Shown here: positions 57,095 through 61,484 of the stretch, one piece after another
Layout: each line of letters begins with the position of its first letter
How positions within the stretch are numbered: the stretch's first letter is position 1
Assembly: GCF_024054565.1 (NCBI RefSeq)
Contig: NZ_JAMXLR010000024.1
Span: 186,001 to 250,000 of the forward strand
DNA: 64,000 nt
Reading direction: 5' to 3'
Source: Aeoliella straminimaris
GTDB lineage: Bacteria > Planctomycetota > Planctomycetia > Pirellulales > Lacipirellulaceae
Made by a program: the position numbers and the translations under genes
Notes under the pieces: generated by a model
The model's database searches: none
Told to the model about the DNA's origin: nothing
Seen by the model: only the letters and a program-made list of their open reading frames with translations

Positions 57095-59950
57095 TTAGAT
57101 CAGGTCACTACCGGAGTTCAACGGCGTTTTTCTTACACCGACTTGGCGAGCTTGCACTACCCAGGCGGCAAGACCGATTGCCACCCATGCCAGAAACACC
57201 CCCGCAGGCTCGGGCACCGCTGACACCAGAGTGACTTCGCCCGTGGTGTACAGAGCGGAGGTGTCCCACGTCGCCCGCGGATCGGCGACAATCGTGGCAA
57301 ATTCACCATGGGGATCGACACCCGTCCAGTTGAACAGTTGGAATGTGGTGCCGATCAATCTTCGCGGAGCGACGTGCCCGTCGAACAGAAGTTCTAGAGT
57401 ACCTGCCAGTTCGACGGGGATGGCCGATTCGTAGTGGACCGTCGACCCCCACTGGTCGTCTTCGAAGACGATGCGGAGCGTTCCGTCGGTGTGGATGGAC
57501 ATCGCCTGGGTGACGACAATGGGGATATCGCCGATGGGCTCTGATTTGTACCGAGGGATCAACTCCGGGTCGAAGTCCCACAGTCGCATCGTCTCGCTGG
57601 CCTCGATGTGGAGGCCTTCGATGTGGCCGTCGGGGTAGATGAAGTTGTGCTTGATGATATCGGAAGTATCAAGGGCGCCACCCCGAGTGTCAGCACCGCT
57701 CAGATTGGTACCTATCAACCTTCCAGAAGGCAACCAGTCGGTTGAAAACCAGGTGCTGGCCAGATTTGCTCCACGAAGGTCGGCGCCAACCATTGTCAGC
57801 GCACCGAACTCGCACCCGACCAGCTTTATGCCCGATAGATCCCAATTGCCTGGGATTGGACTGGCCAACTGAATTCCGGACAGGTCGCTTATCTCGTAAC
57901 TCAGGGTGGAGTAGAGTTGTGACGGAGTGAAGATCGAATCGCGCGTATGGAAGAACCGGGTCCCGCGAATGTCGGCTCCGCTAAAATCAGCGCCAACGTA
58001 GTCTATTTCTTGAAAGCGAGCATTCGTAATATTCGCTCCAGTAAAGTCTGCGCCGGCAAGGGAGCCGAACATGAAGAATGCCTCGTGCAGGTTGACCTTG
58101 GTCATGTTGGCCTCGGCTAGATCGGCTCCCACGATGGATGACTGTCTGAGGTTCTGGCCTTCGAGATTCCAACCGCCGAGATCGCTATTGGTAAACCTAA
58201 CACCACTGAGATCGCCGGTTTTGTAGCTTGCAGTGCTGTAGAGCTGGGCAGCGGAAATGGCATTGTTCCCTCCACCGTGGGTGGTCCCAGATACGATCGC
58301 ATCGGTGAAATCGATACCAGTGAGCGTAGCGCCAGTGAGATTCGCATCAGTGAGGTTAATTCCACGGAAATCGCAGCCGGCGAGGTCGTTTTCGCGAAGG
58401 TCGATACCAGTCAGGTCACCTGACTGGTAGCTGGCCGTGGAGTAGAGTTGCGTTACCGATATTCCCGCGCCCGATGTCGACGTCTTATGAAAATTGGCCT
58501 TGCGAACTTCTGCTCCAGCGAAGTTTACTCCAGTCAGCGTGGCACCCTGAAACGACGCTCCCGTGAGGTCTTTCCCTGCAAAGTCCCAGTTGGTGAGGTC
58601 GTTGTAGCTTAAATCCATCTCGACGAGGTCGCCTGTCTGATAGCTCTCGGTCGAATATAAACGTTCCGATGTGAACCCTCGCGTGGTTGTCGACGCGAAG
58701 CTCGCCCCGCGTACTTTGGCAGCGGCGACGTTGGTGTCTTGCAGGTAGGCGCCTTTGAGGACGGCCCCCGTCAGGTCGGCGCCGCTGAGGTTGGCGCCCT
58801 GTAAAGATGAGGATCCCAAGTTGGCGTAAGCGAGTTGCTGATCGGCGAGATCCAGATTCCTAAGATTGCCGCTCGTGAAATTAATTCCCGCTAGGTCGCC
58901 GACTTTGTAGCTGGCAGTGGAGTATAGCTGGGTAGCTGTCAGGTCAGTATGTGCAAAAGATAACCCAGCGATCACTGCGTCGGAGAAGTCAGCAGTCGCT
59001 AGACTTGCATAACTGAAGTTGGCGTTCGTCAAGTTTGCACGGCTGAAGTCGGCGCCGTTTAGCCATGCGCTTTCAAATCCACTATCAGTCAGGTTCTGCC
59101 CGGCGAAGTCCCAATCTCTGAGATCGCACTCGTGCAGGATTATCCCTTCTAGATCGGCGTCCTTATAACTGCGCGTGGAATAGAGTTGGTCATTTGTGAT
59201 TCTCCCATGCGTCCAGTAGGGGAATGGCATCCTATGAATCGGCGCATCATTGAATATCGCCCCGCGAACGTCCGCATCAATGAATGACGCTTTGTCGACT
59301 GTCGAATCAATGAAACTAGCATGGCGGAGATCGGCGCCACTAAGATCTGCTCCATCTAGTCCTGCTAGATCGAAATTCGCATAGGTCAAGTTCTGATCGG
59401 CAAAATCCCAGTTCGCCAAATCGTTGCGTTCTAAGCTTATGCCTGTCAGATCGCCGCGCTTATAGCTGGCGGTCGAGTAGATTTGCTCCGGCGAGAGTCC
59501 GCCGTCCGTTGTGTTTCCAAAGCTAGTGTTCCGAATTTCTGCATTGGTGAAGTCGGTGCCAGTCAACGTTGCTCCCGAGAAGTGAGCACCTGCCAGGTTC
59601 GTGCTGCGAAGATGCGCAGATTCCAAGTTGCTCCCGATGAATCTCACGTAACGCAGATTGCTGCTACTGAAATCGGCGTTGACCAACGTCGTGTTGTAGA
59701 AAAAGGCTCCTGAGAGTTGTGCACCGCTCAGGTAAGCCTTCGTGAGGTCACCAGAGGAGCCAATCATTCGCGGCAATGGCACCAACCCTGCCCCATCTGG
59801 CGCAAGCGTTGTCGACTGTTGCCGGCCCTGCGAGGGATCGGTAGGGTCGATGTACTCCCATTGATAAATGTCTGCGCGGGCCGGTGTCGGACCCCAGCCA
59901 GCTTGTAGCGCTAGCGCCGTAGCACAGCACCATAACAGTAAACGTGTCAT
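57095..59950 (-). CDS. Exported modular pentapeptide-repeat protein with PEP-CTERM-like end
   Basis: 951 residues with a signal peptide (MTRLLLWCCATALALQ). Pentapeptide A(D/N)LxG-type repeats fill about residues 50-740. A higher-order module repeats seven times, each opening with a variant of QLYSTASYKxGDLxGI and continuing with NDLxxWDF and GADFSGA units. Module starts in DNA lie near 59470, 59175, 58918, 58648, 58440, 58233 and 57905. After a beta-rich domain the C-terminus has VPEPAGVFLAWVAIGLAAWVV and a basic stretch, resembling PEP-CTERM. Pentapeptides form a right-handed beta-helix; a structural surface role is likely. Confidence 0.85.
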   Translation of the reverse strand: MTRLLLWCCATALALQAGWGPTPARADIYQWEYIDPTDPSQGRQQSTTLAPDGAGLVPLPRMIGSSGDLTKAYLSGAQLSGAFFYNTTLVNADFSSSNLRYVRFIGSNLESAHLRSTNLAGAHFSGATLTGTDFTNAEIRNTSFGNTTDGGLSPEQIYSTASYKRGDLTGISLERNDLANWDFADQNLTYANFDLAGLDGADLSGADLRHASFIDSTVDKASFIDADVRGAIFNDAPIHRMPFPYWTHGRITNDQLYSTRSYKDADLEGIILHECDLRDWDFAGQNLTDSGFESAWLNGADFSRANLTNANFSYASLATADFSDAVIAGLSFAHTDLTATQLYSTASYKVGDLAGINFTSGNLRNLDLADQQLAYANLGSSSLQGANLSGADLTGAVLKGAYLQDTNVAAAKVRGASFASTTTRGFTSERLYSTESYQTGDLVEMDLSYNDLTNWDFAGKDLTGASFQGATLTGVNFAGAEVRKANFHKTSTSGAGISVTQLYSTASYQSGDLTGIDLRENDLAGCDFRGINLTDANLTGATLTGIDFTDAIVSGTTHGGGNNAISAAQLYSTASYKTGDLSGVRFTNSDLGGWNLEGQNLRQSSIVGADLAEANMTKVNLHEAFFMFGSLAGADFTGANITNARFQEIDYVGADFSGADIRGTRFFHTRDSIFTPSQLYSTLSYEISDLSGIQLASPIPGNWDLSGIKLVGCEFGALTMVGADLRGANLASTWFSTDWLPSGRLIGTNLSGADTRGGALDTSDIIKHNFIYPDGHIEGLHIEASETMRLWDFDPELIPRYKSEPIGDIPIVVTQAMSIHTDGTLRIVFEDDQWGSTVHYESAIPVELAGTLELLFDGHVAPRRLIGTTFQLFNWTGVDPHGEFATIVADPRATWDTSALYTTGEVTLVSAVPEPAGVFLAWVAIGLAAWVVQARQVGVRKTPLNSGSDLI

Positions 59951-60404: not shown

Positions 60405-61484
60405 ATGAAGCTGCATTGTTTACTGGTTGTCGTTGTCTGCTTTGCCGTGTGCGGTTGCGAAAAGGCGCCGACTGTTCCCCAGCCGACGGGGCAACTGGTT
60501 TTTCAGCCGCGGTTTCAGTTTGCGGATGGGGAAACTACGCACCAGGGGACGGGCTTTGTGGTGGCAACCGCCGATGGCAAACGAGTGGGCGTGACCAGTG
60601 CGCACTTTCTCGATTTCGAGGGGGCGCCCATGGTCTCGGCCGAGTGGCTTGCGGTTCCTGACGACAGCGAGGTCTTTCAATTCACGCATTCGCTTGGTGC
60701 GCCGGGCGATGGAGGGCAGGTGGGTCCCGATGTCTTCGACTTGCGCCGCGACTATTTCATTATCGTGGGCGACGAGCCGGCTACCGTGGATTGCCAGCCG
60801 CTGGAGTTGGACGATCGTCCGCGGCCGAAAGTTAGCGAGCGCGTCTGGTTGCCCAACAAGGATGCGGATGCCCCCGAGGGCTACGAGATGGTCGCAGGAT
60901 TTGTCGATGAGGTGGCCGACGAGTACATCGGCATCGAGCTGGTCGATGAGATCCAACTGCAGTCGCAAAGTGGTTCTCCCATCATCAGCCAACGCACCGG
61001 CAAGGTGCTGGGAACCTTGGCCCGTGGTGGCAGCGATGCGGGAAAAACGTTCCTGCGTTTGTGCCCTGCAAAAGACATTCTTGAAGTGATCGCGGCGAAT
61101 CCGCCCACCATGAAACTGGAGCAGGCGGTTGGCGATCCCTCGCTCGCCCGGGATCCCAGCAGGACAACAGCTGCCGAGCGAAGCGTGGTGCAGCTAACCT
61201 CGGCGGCGGCCAAAGAAATAGCTCGACGTATGGAGGATCTTCCGCCCGCGCATCTGCGGTTTTCAATCGACGGTGATGACACACAGGGCTTCCGCCACGG
61301 CATGCAATTCGATGAGCAGATCGACCCGGTGGATGACTTCGTCTCCGTCAGCCACGGCGTTAACGTTGTCGTCGACCGCGCAAGTGTCCGCTACCTGGAT
61401 GGCACGACGGTTGACTGGCTGGATGACGAGGAAGGAATGGGATTTCAGTTCGATAATCCAAACCTGGTACAGGACGAAGAATAG
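60405..61484 (+). CDS. Lipoprotein: trypsin-like protease domain fused to a cysteine-free A-type (IscA/HesB) domain
   Basis: 359 residues from the ATG at 60405 (a GTG at 60402 overlaps). MKLHCLLVVVVCFAVCGC is a lipoprotein signal with Cys16 or Cys18 to be lipidated. Residues about 45-225 look like a trypsin-fold protease: GTGFVV, His67 in TSAHF, Asp116 in RRDYFII, Ser189 in SQSGSPII, then GKVLGTLARGG. Residues 261-353 follow the A-type Fe-S carrier pattern: VVQLTSAAAKEIARRM, LRFSIDGDDTQGFRHGMQF, DRASVRYLDGTTVDW, GFQFDNPN. The three family cysteines are gone (GGCSG reads GDDTQG; CGCG is absent). An A-type fold outside the cytoplasm is unexpected. Confidence 0.82.
   Translation: MKLHCLLVVVVCFAVCGCEKAPTVPQPTGQLVFQPRFQFADGETTHQGTGFVVATADGKRVGVTSAHFLDFEGAPMVSAEWLAVPDDSEVFQFTHSLGAPGDGGQVGPDVFDLRRDYFIIVGDEPATVDCQPLELDDRPRPKVSERVWLPNKDADAPEGYEMVAGFVDEVADEYIGIELVDEIQLQSQSGSPIISQRTGKVLGTLARGGSDAGKTFLRLCPAKDILEVIAANPPTMKLEQAVGDPSLARDPSRTTAAERSVVQLTSAAAKEIARRMEDLPPAHLRFSIDGDDTQGFRHGMQFDEQIDPVDDFVSVSHGVNVVVDRASVRYLDGTTVDWLDDEEGMGFQFDNPNLVQDEE

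Follow-up and report, generated by a model that had tools for sequence, protein, structure and literature searches.

The gene considered here, from a 64,000-nucleotide stretch of Aeoliella straminimaris DNA (contig NZ_JAMXLR010000024.1, positions 186,001 to 250,000; hereafter the window), encodes a predicted exported protein in which a serine-protease-like domain is fused to a C-terminal A-type (IscA/ErpA-like) domain that has lost every cluster-binding cysteine. A-type domains have been studied as cytoplasmic iron-sulfur (Fe-S) carriers. Each half of the fusion also occurs separately as a predicted exported protein: the protease in metagenome-assembled genomes (MAGs) of Gemmataceae and Polyangia, and the A-type domain as lipoproteins in genomes of the same family. 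We tentatively favour the view that the protein is an envelope lipoprotein protease with a cluster-free A-type docking or dimerisation module.

With regard to the A-type domain, PF01521 (Fe-S_biosyn), the profile proposed for comparison in the initial annotation, matches residues 262-354 with an E-value of 1.2e-9 and 38.8 bits, above its curated cutoff of 26.3, and places the domain in this family. TIGR00049 matches with an E-value of 6.9e-16, 0.4 bits short of its cutoff. Among solved structures in the PDB, the sequence of the domain matches HI1723 (2.1e-10), IscA (about 1e-7), and DsrR (2k4z, 0.019). The scores fall below the cutoffs of the carrier equivalogs, namely IscA (39.1 against 150.6 bits), ErpA (54.7 against 117), and SufA (38.0 against 136.2). 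The Nfu domain is absent from the fusion, the NfuA model reaching only 11.5 of 269 bits. None of the three ligand cysteines is present, in agreement with the initial annotation, and the domain contains no cysteine at all: GGGCSG is replaced by GDDTQG, and the chain terminates where CGC would begin. As a reference, we used 64 canonical A-type copies of the planctomycete order, in which 45 positions are conserved at 90% or more; 32 of these 45 are retained in the window domain. Such retention of the core without the ligand sites would be expected if selection acted on the fold rather than on the cluster. Judging from its sequence, the domain cannot hold an Fe-S cluster in the known way.

The fold was examined in an AlphaFold2 model, built on a 20-row alignment and showing a mean predicted local distance difference test score (pLDDT) of 79. 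The A-type part of this model superposes on IscA (1r94_A) with a template modelling (TM) score of 0.87 and a root-mean-square deviation of 2.0 over 96 columns in Foldseek. For this part, the assessment relied on the Foldseek list alone, as protease rows filled the structural second-look list. The structure prediction thus returned the A-type fold that had been claimed, from an alignment containing A-type homologues; the sequence evidence for the A-type identity stands apart from the model.

The lipoprotein signal recognised initially fits the PROSITE PS00013 rule, residues 1-18 comprising a lipobox with Cys18 and a charged N-region with Lys2. The fusion protein is therefore probably exported as an envelope lipoprotein, and its extracytoplasmic location holds as a prediction from this signal. 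Of the two protease homologues described below, L112 matches the lipobox pattern, but its first Arg occurs only at position 8; the pattern is absent from L113.

The protease domain is less readily assigned by profile than by fold. PF13365 (Trypsin_2) matches residues 48-203 with an E-value of 0.0016 and 19.7 bits, below the 27.6-bit cutoff, and the related proteins L067, L064, and L068 likewise match below this cutoff. The predicted model, in contrast, has the chymotrypsin fold, with HtrA/DegS/DegQ, V8-type, and RsgI9 proteases matching at Z-scores of 16-17 over about 180 residues (Foldseek, VIA-align). Searched against the sequences of solved structures, the protease profile gave no relevant match. 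The apparent His67-Asp116-Ser189 triad described initially is as stated: the three residues occur in triad order and are invariant in the window protein, L112, and L113. The triad and the SQSGSP motif are thus kept in another planctomycete family and in another phylum. The Gemmataceae protein (L112) is 47% identical to the window protease over 210 residues and stops just past the protease domain, without an A-type domain. It is identical to the L067 protein, which suggests that the two are the same locus; if so, this MAG is related to the host genome at the level of class. The third homologue, L113, comes from a Polyangia MAG whose contig end cuts off the C-terminal region. These stand-alone protease homologues, the predicted exported cysteine-poor A-type lipoproteins, and a second cysteine-less A-type fusion, both described below, had been missed in the initial annotation.

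More distant trypsin-like domains were also observed. The predicted membrane proteins encoded by L064 (286-2154) and L068 (298-1938) each carry at the C-terminus a trypsin-like domain related to that of the window protein; L064 shows a weak N-terminal GYF_2 match, and L068 seems to retain the catalytic His and Ser. L039/L064 was considered as a protease relative and set aside as a GYF_2-type membrane protein that has lost the catalytic His and Ser. The product of L224 is predicted to be exported; its related trypsin-like domain has lost the catalytic Ser (GWGGAP) and precedes an apparent von Willebrand A domain.

The closest relatives of the window A-type domain are two small predicted lipoproteins, L004 and L006, from two genomes of the same family. 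The domain of L004 contains no cysteine, and that of L006 keeps one and has lost CGC. In 397 genomes of the order searched with a profile made from L004, L006, and the window domain, only these three stood clear of the canonical copies. Both lipoprotein genes are flanked by a nitrilase-type amidohydrolase and an NCS2-type permease, with a semialdehyde dehydrogenase and an aminotransferase nearby. These names were assigned by reading the sequences, not by family search, and the neighbourhood reads as reductive pyrimidine breakdown. The genome carrying the fusion possesses a nitrilase gene of 88% identity without an adjoining A-type gene, and no remnant of an A-type lipoprotein was seen in the map of open reading frames around it. 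The same genome encodes a canonical A-type copy with all cysteines (C29).

A further protein of the same genome (C61; P0004; L033:4674-5693, + strand, G000), of about 340 residues, also ends in an A-type domain without cysteines. No Pfam family matches its N-terminal part of about 230 residues, and apart from having the same kind of C-terminal domain the protein is unrelated to the window fusion. In G027, a homologue is laid out in the same way and likewise has no cysteine at the ligand sites, and the N-terminal part occurs without an A-type domain in other genomes of the order (L047). Together, these sequences make up a small planctomycete set of A-type domains that lack cluster ligands; part of the set is predicted to be exported, and the attached partners are of at least two kinds. 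Extended frames at canonical copies (e.g. L014/L036, 366 residues) were rejected as fusions; they look like upstream read-through, being rich in Arg and Ala in the N-terminal part and having a separate Met, as well as CGC, in the A-type domain. In viruses, 78 IMG/VR contigs (L145-L222) encode A-type proteins, of which those aligned keep CGC or CGCS/CACG variants.

The search for other proteins with both domains, suggested in the initial annotation, yielded the separate halves and the C61 protein, but no second fusion of this kind: both halves were seen together in none of 60 related genomes. No close protease relatives beyond those named were found in overlapping sets of genomes from the order (297), the class (298), and the phylum (392). 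Two scans of 84,980 genomes, sensitive to close relatives only, returned nothing with the whole protein and two loci with the protease pair; plasmids gave no match. The fusion is therefore rare, and perhaps recent.

Under the docking reading, the N-terminal lipid would anchor the protein in the cell envelope, and the A-type domain, held on a flexible linker and no longer binding an Fe-S cluster, would deliver to the active site either a target protein or a further protease subunit. The protein may have originated by the joining of a copied IscA-like domain, by then probably a small exported lipoprotein, to a lipoprotein protease. This reading is supported by NfuA, in which an A-type domain without ligand cysteine targets the protein to apo-proteins (PMC8593673; also PMC10301553), and by the conservation of the core while the ligand sites were lost. 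Further support comes from the domain assignments, from the His, Asp, and Ser kept in homologues of another family and phylum, and from L004 and L006 as stand-alone degenerate A-type lipoproteins with export signals, the former pairing with the window domain in a tree. The initial suggestion that the fold is reused as a binding or regulatory module is partly supported and is the best reading. That some planctomycetes have moved the A-type fold from Fe-S biogenesis into the envelope as a cysteine-free protein-recognition module, both on its own in lipoproteins and as the target-selecting part of a membrane-anchored serine protease, is conceivable but doubtful.

Several observations weigh against the docking reading. 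The AlphaFold alignment included A-type homologues, so that the fold match is not independent of the sequence, and the domain predicted alone without an alignment gave no usable model (pLDDT 37). The tree groups the window domain with L004 (support 83/83), a link weakened by long branches. The genomes with stand-alone A-type lipoproteins show no match to the protease part, so co-occurrence gives no support for a shared function. As the fusion was found in this genome only, selection on the whole fusion is not measurable. Finally, Ser187 occupies the usual oxyanion Gly position in the window protein, L112, and L113, and the catalytic Ser is lost in the wider paralogues L064, L066, and L224, the first of which also lacks the His.

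These last two points could also indicate that the protease is inactive and that the whole protein serves in the envelope for binding or as a scaffold. As no difference in the His, Asp, Ser, or SQSGSP separates the planctomycete homologues from the Polyangia one, we consider this quite improbable. With the oxyanion Gly replaced in all three homologues, protease activity is likely but not certain. It is unlikely that the two lipoprotein genes were fused recently by chance, leaving a functionless A-type part beside a protease that works alone, even though the L112 protein ends directly after its protease domain and no second genome carries the fusion. The domain is of full length and keeps its 32 conserved positions after losing all ligand cysteines, which is above expectation for unconstrained drift, and the unrelated C61 protein carries the same kind of C-terminal domain. 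The A-type domain could also sense a ligand or misfolded protein and switch catalysis on or off, as does the PDZ domain of HtrA. In fold, the protease comes nearest to S1C/HtrA proteases, in which a sensor domain is C-terminal, and to RsgI9 with its S1C-NTF2 pair, and the domain order is the same in these proteins. However, neither sequence nor structure shows a sign of allostery, and the protease homologue L112 stands alone without an A-type domain; we hold little expectation of such a switch.

Compared with known systems, the docking module most resembles the A-type domain of NfuA, which is likewise degenerate, has lost its ligand cysteine, is fused, and is used for client targeting (PMC8593673). 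NfuA differs in being cytoplasmic, in having its A-type part at the N-terminus, and in having as partner an Fe-S carrier (Nfu) domain rather than a protease. DsrR of Allochromatium vinosum, described in a title cited in PMC11406059 as an IscA-like protein that does not bind iron or Fe-S, is matched by the window domain in the PDB search above, but it is a single-domain protein involved in the regulation of sulfur oxidation and is not known to be exported. The IscA, ErpA, and SufA carriers share the sequence family and predicted fold of the window domain, which differs from them in lacking the ligand cysteines, in its predicted extracytoplasmic location, and in being fused. With HtrA/DegS/DegQ and V8-type proteases (S1C, S1B), the window protein shares the predicted fold, the triad order, and the succession of protease and accessory domain, whereas it has an A-type domain instead of PDZ and SQSGSP instead of GNSG(G/S)P. 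The best structural match, RsgI9 of Clostridium thermocellum (7sjy), also carries a small accessory domain, NTF2-like in this case, behind its S1C-like domain. In the literature searched, we found no description of an exported, lipoprotein, or protease-fused A-type domain. Cysteine loss in A-type domains is already known from NfuA and DsrR, while the compartment and the partner are new as far as we found.

The question addressed is the extent to which degenerate A-type copies persist as plain protein-binding folds. Predicted exported cysteine-free copies, both alone and on a protease, would separate the protein-binding role of the A-type fold from cluster chemistry and make this role testable in a compartment without Fe-S machinery. 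Profile matches name such proteins iron-sulfur assembly proteins despite the absence of a cluster site of known type, which calls for caution in annotation.

The features of the gene are listed in Table 1. An in-frame GTG lies immediately 5' of the ATG and is without consequence. The codon-position GC is coding-like in both halves, and a frame artefact was ruled out on this basis, together with the single open frame and the independent homologues of each half. The adjoining genes are on the opposite strand, so the fusion gene stands alone.

Table 1. Features of the fusion gene in the window and of related lipoprotein genes.
Feature	Position	Strand	Basis
Whole gene, predicted exported serine-protease-like/cysteine-less A-type fusion (359 residues)	60405..61484	+	Single open frame, ATG at 60405 to stop ending at 61484 (359 codons); coding-like codon-position GC
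Predicted lipoprotein signal peptide, lipid-modified Cys18 (codon 60456-60458)	60405..60458	+	PROSITE PS00013-type rule
Chymotrypsin-fold (HtrA/V8-like) protease domain, residues about 28-232	60486..61100	+	Sub-threshold Trypsin_2; model against S1C proteases; homologues L112, L113
His67, catalytic candidate	60603..60605	+	Invariant in window protein, L112, L113
Asp116, catalytic candidate	60750..60752	+	Invariant in window protein, L112, L113
Ser189 in SQSGSP, catalytic candidate	60969..60971	+	SQSGSP invariant in window protein, L112, L113
Flexible linker, residues 233-260	61101..61184	+	pLDDT about 42 over 241-260
A-type (IscA/ErpA-like) domain without cysteines, residues 262-354	61188..61466	+	PF01521 1.2e-9; IscA 1r94 TM 0.87
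Thr293, site of the first cluster cysteine (GGGCSG to GDDTQG)	61281..61283	+	Alignment with 64 canonical copies
Small predicted lipoproteins, degenerate A-type domain (0 and 1 Cys)	L143:5416-5826; L144:5547-6017	+; -	In pyrimidine-breakdown-like cluster

The host genome comprises 7.8 Mb in 98 contigs. Elsewhere in the window, the gene at 57095-59950 (- strand) encodes a 951-residue protein with pentapeptide-like repeats within a larger repeating unit (LYSTASYK... blocks) and a PEP-CTERM-like anchor at its C-terminus.
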